64,000 nucleotides of DNA from Sutterella wadsworthensis 2_1_59BFAA (GTDB taxonomy: Bacteria > Pseudomonadota > Gammaproteobacteria > Burkholderiales > Burkholderiaceae_F): the NCBI RefSeq assembly GCF_000297775.1, contig NZ_JH815514.1:33798-97797 (forward strand). The letters run 5' to 3'. The translations under genes were made by a program, and so were the position numbers. Numbering within the stretch: the stretch's first letter is position 1; the number at the start of each line of letters is the position of its first letter. Positions 15,729-22,847 of the stretch are shown piece by piece. The notes below the pieces were generated by a model that worked only from the letters and a program-made list of their open reading frames with translations, ran no database searches and was not told the origin of the DNA.

Positions 15729-18700
15729 ATGAAGAAAAATTTTTTCCGCCGCCGTTCGATCAGCTACAGAGGTCGCGGCAACTTCGCGACGCAGCTCAGC
15801 TTCTCCCAGCCGATCGTGAAGCTCGCCGTCTGGCTCTACTTCATCATCTGCATCCTGGTCATCGGCACCCGCGTTTTCTTCATGACGCAGGCCGACCACT
15901 ACAGGGATGAAATCACAGCACTCGTCTCCGAAGCCGCGGGCGTCGACGTCCATGCGGGCGAATTCTCCGCAGGCTTCGAGCGCTTCTGGCCCGTCATCAC
16001 CGTCAGGCAGCTCGAGCTTGCAAGGCCGGGCGGCCCCGTCTCGCTCACGCTCCCCGAAGTCAAGGCAAGACTCGCCTGGTCCTCGCTCTGGCATCTCGAG
16101 CCACGTTTCCAGCTGTTGCGCATCAGCAGTCCCGACCTGCGCATCACCCGTCTCGACAAAACGACGCTCGACATCGCGGGCTTCGTCGTCAATCTCCCCG
16201 AAGGAAGCGACGAGGAATCCAACTTCGCCGCTTCCGGCGACAGCAGGGTCGCCGCCTGGTTACTCGCGCAGAAGAAGCTCGAGCTCGTCAACGGCACCAT
16301 CACCTATGACGACCGCTACAGCCCCGGCGCCGCCGAAGTCCGCGTCATGAACGCTAACGTCGTTTTCGAGCAGACGCTTCTCGACTGGCGAGTCGCCGTC
16401 GACGGCACCGCTCACATCAGCGCCGAGGAGAGTCCGCACAAGCAGGGCGAATGCTTCACCGCCGTGGCCCGCATCGACCGCCACATCTTCACGGACACGT
16501 CGAACCCGTTGACCTGGAAGGGACAGGCCTACGTGCGCTTCTCGCACGCCGACGTCGCGAAGCTTCTCTCGCGCGCGGGCTTCCCGCAGTTCATGTCCTC
16601 GGGTTCGGGCGCCGCCGAGGTCTGGGCGGGCTTTGCGGACGGCCGCATCACGAGCGCCACGGCCGACGTCGCGCTGCTCGACATCCACACTCAGCTCGCC
16701 GACAATCTCGAGCCCCTGAAGCTTGCCTGGCTCGAATCGCGCCTCTACTACAACGGCTCGTTCGGCGATCGCGCCGAACAGACCTTCGGCGTAAGGAAGC
16801 TGGACTTCATGACGGCCGACCGTCGCCGCCTCAAGCCCACCGACGCCTCGGTCACGATCAGGACCGACAGCGCGGGCCAGATCTCCGACGGTGCCATCAC
16901 CGTCTCGCGCCTCGACATCGGCTCGCTCATCGCCCTCGTTCCCGAGCTTCCGCTTGACGACGCCGTGCGCTCCTTCGTGACCGCACACGCCCCCGAGGGC
17001 TACCTGAAGGACGTCAGCGTCGCCTTCTCGGGCAATCCCTCCGACCCCGGCAACTGGCGTCCCGCCGCCACCTTCAAGGACCTCTCCCTCAAGGCTGCGG
17101 ACGGCATTCCCGGCATCAGGGCCATTTCGGGTTCGATTTCCCCCCTCAAGAACGGCGAGGGCTTCAAGGTGGTCCTCGACAGCCCGAAGTCGACCCTTTC
17201 CTTCCCCGGCATCTTCCGTCACTCCGACATGAAGTTCGACACGCTCAAGGCAACCGCCGAGATCGTGCCCCATCCGACGCTCACCGTCCGTCTTCCGTCC
17301 TTCGAGGCCTCGAATCCGGACGCCGCGCTCAAGGGAAGCGGCAGCTGGCAGGCGACGGGCGGCCCCGGCACGCTTGAGCTCAACGGCACGATCAGCAGGG
17401 CCAGGGCGACGGCCGTGCCCGACTACATTCCGCTCGTCGTGGGCGACGACGTGCTCGACTGGCTAGAGGCCGGCATTCTCGGCGGCAGCGGCTCCAACGG
17501 CACCTTCATCGTGAAGGGACCGCTTGAGCACTTTCCCTGGGACGGCAAGCACAAGAACGACGGACACTTTGCGATCGAGGCCGACATGACGGGCGGCAGG
17601 CTCGACTTCCTCCCCTCGCACGTCAGGAAGGCCGACGGCAGCTGGGAGACCGCCTCGAGTTGGCCCGTTCTCAACAACATCGACGCGCACCTCGCCTTCA
17701 TCGGAAACGGCTTCGAAATCCGCGGCCGGAGCGCAACCTCGCACGACCTCAAGGCAAGCGACGTCGTCGTCAGCATGAAGTCCTACACGGACGCCGATCT
17801 GGAGATCACGGGCCGCGCCCAGGGAGACCTCGGCCGCGTGCTCCGCTATCTCAATCAGGGCAGGATGCTCAACGACATCCTCTCCTCCGCGTTCGCCGAA
17901 AGCAAAGGTTCGGGCGCCGCCGACGTGCGCATGAACCTTCATATTCCCCTTTCCGGCGACATCGTCAGAAACCTGCGCGTCAACATCGATGCGGACATCC
18001 GCAACGCCACCTTCTACTACGGCCTCAACCTGCCGACGGTCTCGGGCGTCAATGGGAGCCTGCACATCACGGAAAAGAGCGTCGTCACGCCCGCGCCCCT
18101 CACGGGCACGAGTCCCGGCGGCAAGCCCGTCAAGGTCACCGCCGAAACGAAGGACGGCGTCATGACGCTCGGCATCGATGCCGAGCCGACGACAGCCGAA
18201 CTCGAGCACTTCCTCGGCATTGATGTCGCCGAGCTCTTCTTCAAAAAGCTCACGGGCACGTCTCCCGTTCATGTCGACGCCGAAATCGGGCTCACGAAGA
18301 GCCGCTTCGCCGTCACCGGCAGGACGGACCTCGACGGCATCGCGAGTACGCTGCCCGAGCCCTATGAAAAGGCGGCGGGCGAGAAGTGGCCCACGACCTT
18401 CAGCGTCACGCTTCCCGAAAAGGCCATGCACGTCGACGTATCGAGCCCCGGACGCGCCGCCGTGGCGCTTCGCTTCACCCGCGACAAGGACGGCCTCTCG
18501 CTCAGGCACGGCTACGCAGGCCTCGGATCCGCACCCATGCGGGCTCCCGCCGAAGGCATCGCAATCCGCGTCGAGACGCCCCGTGCGTCCATCGACGACT
18601 GGCAGCCCTACATTCTTCAGGACGAAAGTCCCGCGAAGCCCGGCAGCGGCAGGACCGCAGCCGGGGAGTCGGCCGTCGACCGCATTTCCATGGTCGAAGC

Positions 18701-19832
18701 CGAGATCGGCGGCGCCCTCTGGTCGGACAAGGAGTTCCGCAACCTCAGCCTCACGGCCAGACGCTTTGCGAAGAACGACTGGCACGTCAGGGTGGCGGGC
18801 GACGACGCCGCAGGACAGATCGAATACAACCAGGCGACGAGCGAGGCCCATGCACGCCTCAAGGTCAACCTCACCCGCTTCGCGCTTCCCGACAGCAAGG
18901 CCGAGAGCTTCGTGCCGAGCGCCAGGCAGGAGGCCGTCACGACCGTCTCCGACCTGCCCGACATCTCACTCGTCATCGACGACCTCAAGGTGGGCAAGCG
19001 TCACCTCGGCAAGGTTGAGTTCGAGGCCAGCCGAAGGGTCGAGGCGGGCAACATCGTCTGGCGCATCACCGAGGCGGCCCTTCGCAATGCGGGCAGCGTC
19101 ATCCGCGCACGAGGTAGCTGGGTGCACACGCCCGGCAAGTCGGGCGAGACCTCCGTCTCGATCGACGGCAACATTCCGGACGCGGGCAAGCTTCTGGCGA
19201 GCCTCGACATTCCGCACGCCGTGAACGGCGCGCCGACGACCCTGCACGCCGACCTCTCCTGGAACAACGCGCCTCACCGCCCCGACCTCTCCACGCTCAG
19301 GGGCTCCTTCTCAAGTGAGATGAAGCGCGGCGAATTCCTGCAGATCGAGCCCGGCGCAGGCCGCCTGCTGAGCCTGCTGTCGATGCAGCACCTTCTGCGC
19401 AGGCTCACGCTCGACTTCAGGGACGTGCTCGGCAAGGGCTTCGCATTCGACTCCGCCCACGTTGCGGGCACGGTGAAGAACGGCGTCCTGAGCATTCCGA
19501 AGGCCTCCGTCCTCGGCTCGTCCGCCACCGTGATGGTGGGCGGCAGCATCAGCCTCGTCAGGGAGACGCTCGACCTCGACGCCATCATTCTCCCCGCCAT
19601 CAACGCGGGCGGGCCGGCGCTTGCGCTCTCGATCATCAACCCCGCCGTCGGCATCGGCACCTTCCTCACGCAGTGGGTTCTCAAGGACCAGCTCTCGAAC
19701 ATGTTCCGCATGGAGTACGAGATCAAGGGCCCGTTCGACGACCCCGTCGTCGAGAAGGCCTCGCGAACAGAACTCGGCGCGGAAATCAAGCCCGCCGCGC
19801 CCGGCGAGCGCATCCGCCCGCTTTTCGACTAG
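15729..19832 (+). CDS. yhdP: YhdP-family AsmA-like protein (intermembrane lipid transport)
   Basis: A 1,367-residue bridge-like protein. One membrane helix (about residues 29-51, IVKLAVWLYFIICILVIG) anchors it in the inner membrane, and the rest is periplasmic beta-repeat of the YhdP/DUF3971 and AsmA type. The C-terminal AsmA2-like segment is at about 1,180-1,340. In E. coli YhdP helps move phospholipids to the outer membrane. Length is close to E. coli YhdP (1,266). No strong ribosome binding site is visible before the ATG. The stop is TAG. The nitrilase-like gene and tldD follow closely on the same strand, a conserved neighbourhood in betaproteobacteria. Confidence 0.9.
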   Translation: MKKNFFRRRSISYRGRGNFATQLSFSQPIVKLAVWLYFIICILVIGTRVFFMTQADHYRDEITALVSEAAGVDVHAGEFSAGFERFWPVITVRQLELARPGGPVSLTLPEVKARLAWSSLWHLEPRFQLLRISSPDLRITRLDKTTLDIAGFVVNLPEGSDEESNFAASGDSRVAAWLLAQKKLELVNGTITYDDRYSPGAAEVRVMNANVVFEQTLLDWRVAVDGTAHISAEESPHKQGECFTAVARIDRHIFTDTSNPLTWKGQAYVRFSHADVAKLLSRAGFPQFMSSGSGAAEVWAGFADGRITSATADVALLDIHTQLADNLEPLKLAWLESRLYYNGSFGDRAEQTFGVRKLDFMTADRRRLKPTDASVTIRTDSAGQISDGAITVSRLDIGSLIALVPELPLDDAVRSFVTAHAPEGYLKDVSVAFSGNPSDPGNWRPAATFKDLSLKAADGIPGIRAISGSISPLKNGEGFKVVLDSPKSTLSFPGIFRHSDMKFDTLKATAEIVPHPTLTVRLPSFEASNPDAALKGSGSWQATGGPGTLELNGTISRARATAVPDYIPLVVGDDVLDWLEAGILGGSGSNGTFIVKGPLEHFPWDGKHKNDGHFAIEADMTGGRLDFLPSHVRKADGSWETASSWPVLNNIDAHLAFIGNGFEIRGRSATSHDLKASDVVVSMKSYTDADLEITGRAQGDLGRVLRYLNQGRMLNDILSSAFAESKGSGAADVRMNLHIPLSGDIVRNLRVNIDADIRNATFYYGLNLPTVSGVNGSLHITEKSVVTPAPLTGTSPGGKPVKVTAETKDGVMTLGIDAEPTTAELEHFLGIDVAELFFKKLTGTSPVHVDAEIGLTKSRFAVTGRTDLDGIASTLPEPYEKAAGEKWPTTFSVTLPEKAMHVDVSSPGRAAVALRFTRDKDGLSLRHGYAGLGSAPMRAPAEGIAIRVETPRASIDDWQPYILQDESPAKPGSGRTAAGESAVDRISMVEAEIGGALWSDKEFRNLSLTARRFAKNDWHVRVAGDDAAGQIEYNQATSEAHARLKVNLTRFALPDSKAESFVPSARQEAVTTVSDLPDISLVIDDLKVGKRHLGKVEFEASRRVEAGNIVWRITEAALRNAGSVIRARGSWVHTPGKSGETSVSIDGNIPDAGKLLASLDIPHAVNGAPTTLHADLSWNNAPHRPDLSTLRGSFSSEMKRGEFLQIEPGAGRLLSLLSMQHLLRRLTLDFRDVLGKGFAFDSAHVAGTVKNGVLSIPKASVLGSSATVMVGGSISLVRETLDLDAIILPAINAGGPALALSIINPAVGIGTFLTQWVLKDQLSNMFRMEYEIKGPFDDPVVEKASRTELGAEIKPAAPGERIRPLFD

Positions 19833-19881: not shown

Positions 19882-20691
19882 ATGCGCATTTCCGCCTGCC
19901 AGATGATTTCGGGCATTGATCCCGAACAGAACGTTCTCGACGCCGTCAACCTCATTTCGGCCTCCGCCGACTCGGGCGCCGATCTCGTCGTGCTCCCCGA
20001 GAACTTCGCCCTGATGGCGGGCGACGCCGCCAACCTCGGCATTGCCGAAGCCGTCGGCGAAGGCCCGATCCAGGATGCCGTGCGCATGGCGGCCATGCGC
20101 TGCGGCCTCTGGGTCGTCGCTGGCTCGATTCCGCTCAAGGGAAAGGACGCCACCCACTACACGCAGTCCTCGCTCGTGTTCGATCCGGAAGGCAACATCG
20201 CGGCCCGCTACGACCGCATCCATCTCTTCCGCTTGCAGAACAAGACCGAGTTCTACGACGAGCGCATCTACATCGAACCCGGCAAGTCCCCCGTCACCTT
20301 CAGGATGACGACCTGGGACGGCGAGTCCTTCTCCGTCGGCCTCTCGCTCGGCTTCGACCTGCGCTTTCCCGAACTCTTCCGCGGCCTTTCCCAGCCCGAC
20401 CTCATCGTGTTGCCCGCGACCTTCACGGAAATGACGGGCCGCGCCCACTGGGCGACGCTGCTCGCTGCACGCGCCATCGAGAACCAGTGCTTCGTCGCAG
20501 CGGCCGCCCAAGGCGGACACCATGCCTGCGGCAGGCGCACCTGGGGCCACTCCAGAATCATCGACGCCTGGGGCGGCATGGTGAGCGAGCTCGCCTCCGG
20601 GACGGGCATCGTGATCGGCAACATCGAGCGCAGCCAGCTCGAGAACGTCCGAAGCACGCTTCCCGCGCTCGCCTCGCGCACGATCTACTGA
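19882..20691 (+). CDS. Nitrilase-superfamily protein lacking catalytic Cys and Lys
   Basis: A 269-residue carbon-nitrogen hydrolase fold protein that aligns over its whole length with Nit1/omega-amidase-type enzymes. The first catalytic residue Glu40 is present in VLPENFALM. The Lys motif normally reading KIHLFD is RIHLFR here (Arg112). The nucleophile motif normally reading GLSVCYDLRFPE is GLSLGFDLRFPE, with Gly157 in place of Cys. Two of three triad residues are therefore missing although the surrounding residues are well conserved, suggesting a maintained non-catalytic role rather than decay. It lies between yhdP and tldD, with only four bases to tldD. Confidence 0.88.
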   Translation: MRISACQMISGIDPEQNVLDAVNLISASADSGADLVVLPENFALMAGDAANLGIAEAVGEGPIQDAVRMAAMRCGLWVVAGSIPLKGKDATHYTQSSLVFDPEGNIAARYDRIHLFRLQNKTEFYDERIYIEPGKSPVTFRMTTWDGESFSVGLSLGFDLRFPELFRGLSQPDLIVLPATFTEMTGRAHWATLLAARAIENQCFVAAAAQGGHHACGRRTWGHSRIIDAWGGMVSELASGTGIVIGNIERSQLENVRSTLPALASRTIY

Positions 20692-20695
20692 ACAC

Positions 20696-22177
20696 ATGAC
20701 GACATTCACATCCTCGCTTGAGCGGCTTTCAGCCGCTCAAGCGCTTTTTTACTCGGGCACGGGACTCGACGACGGCGCGCTTCTCAAGGTGCTCGGCCGC
20801 ATGACGCCGGCAGGCGCGGACTGGGCGGACATCTACCTTCAGCAGACCGTCTCCCGTTCCTGGATTCTCGACGAGGGCGCCGTCAAGACGGGCGGATTCT
20901 CCATCGACAGGGGCGCAGGACTGCGCACCGTCTGCGGCGAGACCTCCACGCTCGCCTACACGGACGTGCTCACGCCCGTCTCGCTTCTCGATGCTGCAGG
21001 CACCGTGGTCGCCTCGGCCGCCTACTCCCCCGAGGGCGCCCCAGGCGTCGTCATCCCCGCCTGCCTCACCCCCGGCTCCTACAGGCCCTGCTGCGGGACG
21101 GAGGACGCATCCTCGAACATGCACACGCCACAGGCGCTTGAGCTCATCCGCGAGGCCGACGCCCTGGCGCGCGAGGCGGATCCCAGGGTCACAGACGTGG
21201 TCGTCACCCTTCAGTGCGAGACGGATGCAACGCTCCTCTGCCGCCTTGACGGCCTGCTTTCGGGCGACATCCGCCCCATGGTCTACCTTTCGATCTCGGT
21301 CATCGCCTCGGAAAACGGCAGGCGCGAGCGAGCCTCGGCCGGAGGCGGCGCACGCGCGGGGCTTGAGTTCTTCACGCGGGAGCGCATCCGTAAGTGGGCT
21401 CGCGACGCCGTCTCGGAGGCAATCCACAATCTCGGCGCCGCACCCGCACCTGCAGGCATCATGCCCGTCGTGCTCGGTCCGGGCTGGCCCGGCATTCTGC
21501 TCCACGAGGCCGTGGGCCACGGACTTGAAGGCGACTTCATCAGAAAGGGCACCTCCGCCTTCACGGGCAGGATCGGCATGCGCGTCGCATCCCCCGGCGT
21601 CACGGTCGTCGACGACGGCACGATCGGACTAGCGCGCGGCTCCATCTGCGCCGACGACGAAGGCACGCCCGCCGCGCGCACGACGCTCATCGAAGACGGC
21701 ATCCTCACGGGCTACATGCACGACCTCACGAGCGCCCGCGTTCTCGGAACCGCCCCGACGGGCAACGGCCGACGCGAGAGCTTCGCCACGCTGCCCCTGC
21801 CGCGCATGACCAACACCTTCATGACGCCCGGGGACTGCGATCCCGCCGACATCGTCAAGTCGGTCAAACGAGGCATCTACGCGAGCAACTTCAGCGGCGG
21901 GCAGGTCGACATCACCAACGGCAAGTTCGTCTTTGCGATGAGCCGCGCCTGGATGATCGAGGACGGCAGGCTCACTCACCCCGTGCGCGGCGCCATGCTA
22001 TCGGGCTCGGGTCCCGAGGCCCTCAAGCACATCCCGCTCATCGGCAACGATCTTGCACTTGACGAGGGCACGGGACAGTGCGGCAAGGACGGCCAGCAGG
22101 TACCCGTGGGCGTAGGCATGCCCACCATCCGCATCGATGCGCTGACCGTTGGCGGCACTGCGGAAAATGCCGTTTAA
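20696..22177 (+). CDS. tldD: Metalloprotease subunit TldD
   Basis: A 493-residue catalytic subunit of the TldD/TldE zinc protease, which degrades peptides and matures some modified peptides. The zinc motif HEAVGHGLEGD is present near residue 275, and GNGRRESFATLPLPRMTNT and GGQVDITNGKFVF are typical C-domain blocks. It is translated four bases after the nitrilase-like gene, probably as one transcript with it. The partner gene tldE/pmbA is not in this window. Confidence 0.95.
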   Translation: MTTFTSSLERLSAAQALFYSGTGLDDGALLKVLGRMTPAGADWADIYLQQTVSRSWILDEGAVKTGGFSIDRGAGLRTVCGETSTLAYTDVLTPVSLLDAAGTVVASAAYSPEGAPGVVIPACLTPGSYRPCCGTEDASSNMHTPQALELIREADALAREADPRVTDVVVTLQCETDATLLCRLDGLLSGDIRPMVYLSISVIASENGRRERASAGGGARAGLEFFTRERIRKWARDAVSEAIHNLGAAPAPAGIMPVVLGPGWPGILLHEAVGHGLEGDFIRKGTSAFTGRIGMRVASPGVTVVDDGTIGLARGSICADDEGTPAARTTLIEDGILTGYMHDLTSARVLGTAPTGNGRRESFATLPLPRMTNTFMTPGDCDPADIVKSVKRGIYASNFSGGQVDITNGKFVFAMSRAWMIEDGRLTHPVRGAMLSGSGPEALKHIPLIGNDLALDEGTGQCGKDGQQVPVGVGMPTIRIDALTVGGTAENAV

Positions 22178-22232: not shown

Positions 22233-22847
22233 GTGTTCAAATCGTTCAAGCTAATGACGCCCATCGTGTGGCTCACGAGGCTGCTCGTCGGCGCCTACCC
22301 CCACTGGCAGGGCTGTGCGCCGTCCTCCAAACAGCGCATCTACTTCGCCAACCACACGAGCCATCTCGACACGATCGTGATCTGGGCCTCGCTGCCCCCG
22401 CAGCTCCGTCCATTCGTTCGCCCCGTCGCCGCCAAGGACTACTGGGAAAAGGGCCTGCTTCGCCGCCGCATCGCGCTTGACGAGCTCAACGTCGTGCTCG
22501 TCGACCGCCGCCGCACGGAACACAGCAATCCGCTCGATCCCCTGCGTCAGGCGCTACAGGAAGGCTCCTCCCTCATCATCTTCCCCGAGGGCACCCGCCG
22601 TCCCCAACCGCTGCCGAGCGAGTTCAAGTCCGGCATCTGGCGCCTGATGAAGGAATTTCCTCAGGTCGAGCTGATTCCCGTCTACATCGAGAACCTGCAC
22701 CGCGCCATGCCCAAGGGCGTGCTGCTTCCCGTTCCCACCGTCTGCTCCATCCGCTTCGGCGCCCCGCTCGAGCATTCTCCCGAAGACCTGAAGGAGGATT
22801 TCCTTGAACGCGCCCGCAACGCCATCATCTCCCTAGCACAGCCATGA
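22233..22847 (+). CDS. PlsC-type lysophospholipid acyltransferase
   Basis: A 204-residue membrane-associated acyltransferase. The NHTSHLD motif (NHx4D catalytic pair) is near residue 40 and FPEGTR near 118. The start is GTG, supported by AGGA seven bases upstream and no better ATG. Its 3' end overlaps the next gene by four bases (ATGA), so the two are translationally coupled. Pairing with a CdsA-like gene recalls the E. coli ynb genes. The acyl acceptor is not shown by sequence. Confidence 0.88.

Follow-up and report, generated by a model that had tools for sequence, protein, structure and literature searches.

Why would a gene that encodes a member of the nitrilase (CN_hydrolase) superfamily stay open after two of the three residues of the catalytic triad have been replaced? 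The question is raised by nit, the gene between yhdP and tldD in Sutterella wadsworthensis 2_1_59BFAA. The window (the whole stretch of DNA that was analysed) comprises 64,000 nucleotides of contig NZ_JH815514.1. A sequence-only reading of it had assigned the Glu-Lys-Cys triad, with Lys and Cys replaced, in an intact frame and had proposed a selected non-catalytic role, perhaps the binding of an amide or the regulation of a partner such as TldD, rather than gene decay.

Results

The nit Product Has a Nitrilase Fold

The nit gene is separated by 49 nt from yhdP and by 4 nt from tldD (Table 1). Its frame is intact between the two neighbours, as had been claimed, with no internal stop in the 269 codons. 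A DDE transposase gene (window:12401-14128, minus strand; PF01609, 39.7 bits) precedes yhdP by about 1.6 kb. The interval separating them contains two overlapping frames (window:14198-15255, minus strand) without any Pfam match, which resemble a frameshifted TnpB-type remnant.

Table 1. Features of the yhdP-nit-tldD locus and codons of the triad positions (window coordinates).
Feature	Position	Strand	Evidence
yhdP (AsmA-like), upstream neighbour	15729..19832	+	PF13116, 705.7 bits; in 12/12 genus genomes
nit, nitrilase-fold pseudo-amidase, 269 aa + stop	19882..20691	+	ORF translation, Pfam PF00795, phmmer, MAFFT
Glu40 codon GAG, catalytic Glu retained	19999..20001	+	alignment, codon comparison
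Arg112 codon CGC at the catalytic Lys position	20215..20217	+	alignment, codon comparison
Gly157 codon GGC at the nucleophile Cys position; GGC/GGG/GGA in the other six species	20350..20352	+	
tldD metallopeptidase, downstream neighbour	20696..22177	+	PF19289, 230.6 bits, HEAVGH in translation; 7/12 genus genomes
plsC-like acyltransferase, next conserved gene of the locus	22233..22847	+	PF01553, 60.5 bits

The nit product matches PF00795 (CN_hydrolase) over residues 2-257 with 138.3 bits (cut-off 23.2). The best phmmer match in the PDB is C. elegans NitFhit (1ems; E 1.9e-37), and mouse Nit2 and yeast Nit2 were also retrieved. An AlphaFold2 model built with seven sequences had a pLDDT of 79.5 and a pTM of 0.83. 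A Foldseek search with this model returned mouse Nit2, NitFhit and yeast Nit2 with TMq values of 0.80-0.86, the top two being mouse Nit2 and NitFhit (0.82-0.86). Residues 114-136 and 182-186 are modelled with pLDDT below 50; the model serves for the fold only, with active-site stretches of low confidence, and the nitrilase fold stands as predicted. By sequence (PF00795) and by fold (Foldseek), the protein belongs to the nitrilase superfamily and is of the Nit1/Nit2 type.

The top NCBIfam match is deaminated glutathione amidase (NF043013; 192.5 bits, residues 6-263). Both curated cut-offs for this activity lie well above the scores of the nit product (500 for NF043013; 355 for NF033621, with a score of 109.8). 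Two orthologues with an intact triad, L010 and L037, are likewise under the NF043013 cut-off (208.6 and 213.1).

Lys and Cys of the Triad Are Replaced in a Single Sutterella Clade

In the phmmer alignment with 1ems, Glu40 falls on Glu of the LPECF motif, Arg112 on Lys of YNKLHLF and Gly157 on Cys of GLSICYD. The same assignment follows from a MAFFT alignment with orthologues, so the triad had been read correctly from the sequence alone. The column of residue 112 contains Lys in 45/45 orthologues outside the Sutterella clade and Arg in all seven Sutterella rows; that of residue 157 contains Cys in 45/45 and Gly in 7/7. Glu40 is present in each of the seven. The nit product has therefore retained the catalytic Glu of the CN_hydrolase superfamily and has neither the catalytic Lys nor the nucleophile Cys. 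An automatic annotation would probably carry over a hydrolase label to Sutterella nit, and such a label is likely wrong.

The 45 outside orthologues were 42 sequences from a search of 61 genomes of relatives, 57 of which yielded some nit match, and three named records (L037-L039). Partial matches (G027, G036, G038), the second copy of G041 (38%), the weakest matches and duplicate loci were kept out of this count, as were seven distant nitrilases (L059-L065; 24-29% identity). The latter, all of which carry Glu, Lys and Cys in the alignment, represent another nitrilase with an intact triad found elsewhere in some Sutterella genomes and in relatives; two that were scanned are YbeM-like, with 300 and 310 bits to NF033621 (cut-off 355).

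Orthologues of nit were found in seven of the 12 Sutterella genomes (G000, G002, G003, G005, G006, G010 and G011); the other five (G001, G004, G007, G008 and G009) have none. The six further Sutterella proteins are 56-73% identical to that of the window. In a tree of 52 rows the seven form one clade (support 100/99); its sister group, genus g9, has the triad intact. Among the aligned orthologues, compared as had been suggested, the loss of both Cys and Lys falls in the Sutterella clade (7/7 versus 0/45). The simplest reading is that the double loss of Lys and Cys arose once, in the ancestor of the nit-carrying Sutterella species. A sequencing error as the source of Arg and Gly was ruled out, since seven genomes agree. 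Among the seven, codons GGC, GGG and GGA are used for Gly157 and CGC and CGT for Arg112, i.e., the residues are fixed while third bases vary. The Arg and Gly pair is beyond chance, being common by descent to seven diverged species, with a Gly codon that drifts silently.

We searched the alignment (7 versus 45 rows) for a nucleophile that had moved. There was no column with Cys in all seven and in fewer than half of the 45 and, accordingly, no newly invariant Cys anywhere in the seven; near residue 157, no Cys, Ser or His is newly invariant. The sole newly invariant Ser, Ser31, is placed by the model where the first helix ends and was rejected as a moved nucleophile. At position 155, the rows used for dN/dS have Ser, Ala or Gly.

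The presence of Glu40 and Glu127 is also compatible with an enzyme of changed chemistry, in which one or both of them would activate water in the space left at Gly157 and Arg112 would stabilise an oxyanion, leading to direct hydrolysis, hydration or lyase activity with no covalent intermediate. Both Glu residues are found in 7/7, Arg retains the charge of Lys, and Asp146 (20317-20319), 11 residues before Gly157, is invariant in the seven and present in only 5/45 elsewhere. Triads of the E-K-S and E-R-S type are reported for the cephalopod vanin/symplectin family (PMC5541922). The lack of a newly invariant Cys, Ser or His around Gly157 argues against such an enzyme. We also know of no nitrilase-superfamily enzyme that works without a Cys or Ser nucleophile, and we consider altered chemistry improbable.

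The Sutterella nit Genes Are under Constraint

Pairwise dN/dS ratios (NG86) were calculated for nit of the Sutterella genomes, with G002 left out of the pairs (the sequence contains an N). The ratio was 0.15-0.35 in ten of 15 pairs, those without G006 and G002, and 0.29-0.57 in the five pairs that include G006; pairwise dS is about 0.7-1.7, high in many pairs, and the ratios are rough. For the pair from genus g9, where the triad is intact, the value was 0.07. The ratio of nit was lower than that of neighbouring yhdP in all seven genus pairs compared, and that of plsC was lower than that of nit in every genus pair compared. Relative to tldD, available in three pairs, nit was higher once (0.210 versus 0.121) and lower twice (0.149 versus 0.306; 0.352 versus 0.410).

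The nit frame is open in 7/7 orthologues. In a neutral simulation (500 runs each), 5 runs remained free of stops at 0.5 substitutions per site and 1 at 1.0.

A second measure came from 35 order-level rows, in which 72 positions reach a conservation of at least 95%. Of these 72, 57 are kept in all rows of the Sutterella clade, 50 in all rows of a control clade (triad-intact, six rows, one of which, L058, is very divergent) and 67 in both g9 rows. Taken row by row, retention is 85-89% in the seven, 93-94% in g9, and 88-92% in five rows of the control clade with 75% in the sixth. Compared with live enzymes, the Sutterella clade is about equally tight and no tighter, and its constraint is somewhat relaxed. 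In the comparison with 45 rows, 61 positions reach 95% or more, and 52 of them are retained in 7/7; positions kept throughout include Glu40, Tyr110, His114, Phe116, Glu127, Arg161, His189, Trp190 and Gln210. Positions conserved at 90% or more that are altered in at least five of the seven are 4, 18, 28, 112, 157, 158, 180 and 195.

One copy stands apart. In G006, where both TldD and TldE are missing, the branch of nit (L107:8826-9632) measures 0.94, versus 0.085-0.31 in the other six; on the YhdP tree the G006 branch is 0.53. When the distribution of nit was read by eye on the YhdP tree, its absence corresponded to three losses, with regain excluded.

Since nit is missing from five of the 12 genus genomes, it is dispensable. 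On our reading, selection maintains a non-catalytic protein that is useful, though dispensable, and this selection is relaxed in G006. The earlier preference for a selected non-catalytic role over decay holds as far as the seven species, the low dN/dS and the fixed Gly with drifting codons are concerned; it is weakened by the five genomes that lack the gene.

Loss of Glutathione Synthesis Does Not Suffice to Explain the Loss of Catalysis

The substrate of deaminated glutathione amidase (for the normal Nit1 reaction, see PMC7041631) has its source in a host that makes glutathione. The gshB profile (TIGR01380) matched in 35/61 relatives and the gshA profile TIGR02049 in 31/61 (29 above cut-off); PF04262, the other gshA type, was found in 4/37 genomes, none of them in the genus. 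All 12 Sutterella genomes were without a match to each of the three profiles, so that glutathione synthesis by the host was not recovered in the genus. A literature search for Sutterella with glutathione and nitrilase retrieved nothing.

It can be imagined that the loss of glutathione synthesis made the amidase useless, that catalysis was lost first and that the gene itself is now on its way out. Such a decaying relic would fit the missing gshA and gshB, the five nit-less genomes, the fast G006 copy with its elevated dN/dS, and a constraint weaker than in the sister pair with the intact triad. It fits poorly with seven open frames at this level of divergence, given how few stop-free runs the neutral simulation leaves, and with a Gly157 that stays fixed despite silent drift of its codon. 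Six other genera (g5, g6, g9, g12, g13 and g15) also lack gshB (g5, g12 and g15 being single genomes, only 80-89% complete), yet their nit retains the triad. Because these six genera have kept Lys and Cys, glutathione loss was rejected as a sufficient cause: it may have allowed catalysis to be lost, yet by itself it leaves that loss unexplained. A relic on its way out is, in our judgement, unlikely.

TldD Is Not an Obligate Partner of nit

The regulation of TldD, put forward as a possible function of nit, would make the protein a regulator or subunit of its operon neighbour. The two genes are adjacent, and yhdP, nit and tldD occur together in 17 of 22 loci (L037-L058); in the remaining five, the contig or the locus ends too early or only some of the three genes are seen. 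By tblastn with TldD and by PF01523, TldD and TldE are both present in seven of the 12 genus genomes and both absent from G004, G006, G007, G008 and G011. In loci L103, L104, L105, L107 and L108, the plsC-like gene follows yhdP or nit with no tldD in between.

Presence and absence across the genus genomes led us to reject TldD as an obligate partner. Genomes G006 (96% complete) and G011 (89%) have nit and no TldD or TldE; conversely, in G001 and G009 yhdP and tldD are present and nit is missing between them. In G006, G011 and the sister genus g9 the plsC-like gene directly follows nit, so in g9, too, a nit gene, there with an intact triad, has no tldD at this locus. An obligate partnership is excluded for G006 and probably for G011, the latter at 89% completeness. 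Three of the five Tld-less genomes are also without nit, and nit is fastest in one of the remaining two, which could hint at a loose link between nit and Tld, although twelve genomes are too few. The regulation of TldD as the sole role of nit was thus not borne out, and we regard TldD partnership as very unlikely. A literature search for tldD together with a nitrilase found nothing relevant.

The partner could, in principle, be another nitrilase-fold enzyme, with nit as the regulatory subunit of a heteromer. Genomes G010 and G006 do carry a second nitrilase with an intact triad, that of G006 scoring 300 bits to NF033621. No second match to the nit query was seen in G002, G003, G005 and G011. 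In the window's genome there is one other CN_hydrolase match, whose translation reads as a membrane protein similar to Lnt, equipped with Glu, Lys and Cys motifs of its own; a heteromer with a second soluble nitrilase was rejected there, none having been found. We give a heteromer hardly any weight.

Cys-to-Gly Replacements in Other Burkholderiales

The genomes of the order (399, of which 13 are from the family of the window) were scanned with a pattern describing the Cys motif in which the Cys codon is replaced by one starting with A, C or G; this pattern is blind to codons starting with T and to motif variants. The pattern matched in 12/399 genomes and its reversed control in five. Judged by translation, three of the 12 matches are nit, namely those of the window, of G216 (family f13) and of G199 (family f39), all with Gly. 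The intact Cys motif, which is common to other nitrilases, was found in 343/399 genomes and is absent from these three.

In G216 (nit at L132:8267-9058), the replacement of Cys157 by Gly is the only change among the 72 conserved positions, and in G199 (L133:5595-6386) three of the 72 are changed. Both have kept Lys112 and adjoin tldD. These are single genomes, G199 being 68% complete, and an error in either is possible; judged from such sequences, Cys-to-Gly replacement does not amount to widespread recurrence. They would nevertheless count as independent repeats if Nit of the yhdP-nit-tldD locus had a second function, ligand sensing or scaffolding, that is independent of catalysis even with an intact triad and if the amidase had been dropped in Sutterella. 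We consider this second function possible, though rather doubtful.

Discussion

We propose, with moderate confidence, that Sutterella nit is a Nit1/Nit2-type amidase in which Cys-based catalysis was lost once in an ancestor and which selection has maintained from then on for binding. In other words, we read nit as a clade-specific, selected pseudo-amidase; most likely it binds, and does not turn over, a small ligand, or else it binds a partner. Binding of a ligand is plausible because active-site motif residues conserved in the family are retained.

The course of events would be as follows. After Cys-based catalysis had been lost in the ancestor of the nit-carrying Sutterella species, the pocket would still have taken a small ligand such as an omega-amide or alpha-keto acid, as in yeast Nit2. 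According to the titles of PDB entries, yeast Nit2 structures contain alpha-ketoglutarate or oxaloacetate and, in a Cys-to-Ser mutant, an endogenous peptide-like ligand. Arg112 may hold the carboxylate or oxyanion formerly contacted by Lys, and Gly157 would make room. The ligand, bound and not cleaved, would set the interaction of nit with a partner. Alternatively, nit may be a scaffold, as human Nit1 can be: the Cys-to-Ala form of human Nit1 is reported to retain tumour-suppressor activity and Fhit binding (PMC9913352).

The closest systems for comparison are the triad-intact orthologues in the same tree, of which L010 and L011 (sister genus) and L037 (Propionivibrio limicola) are 48-51% identical to the window protein. 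In the loci examined (L115, L116 and L037), these orthologues adjoin yhdP, as nit of the window does. They differ by their intact Lys and Cys, and 96% of the 45 carry Arg at position 195; the Sutterella proteins have Arg112, Gly157 and Ala or Ser at 195. With Nit1/deaminated glutathione amidase (NF043013, NF033621; 1ems), Sutterella nit has the fold and family in common. Unlike it, Sutterella nit lacks Lys and Cys, scores below the curated cut-offs and belongs to a genus in which no glutathione synthesis genes were found.

In the Nit1-Fhit paper, all members are said to have the triad (PMC9913352), and a limited literature search brought up no account of a Cys-less protein of the nit family that is natural and under selection. 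In the cephalopod vanin/symplectin family, Ser replaces Cys in some proteins, so that natural Cys loss and Lys-to-Arg exchange occur in the nitrilase superfamily as in Sutterella nit (PMC5541922). These are two-domain animal proteins, and their Ser could still be a nucleophile, which Gly cannot. The Cys-to-Ala form of human Nit1 lacks the nucleophile, like Sutterella nit, and still acts in the cell (PMC9913352); it is a laboratory-made protein that keeps Lys, whereas Sutterella nit is natural and has lost it. What Nit proteins do beyond the amidase reaction is also a question for human Nit1, which remains functional as a catalytic mutant. Sutterella and g9, where a naturally inactive protein can be set beside a live one that is its close relative, offer a clean test of Nit roles beyond deaminated glutathione.
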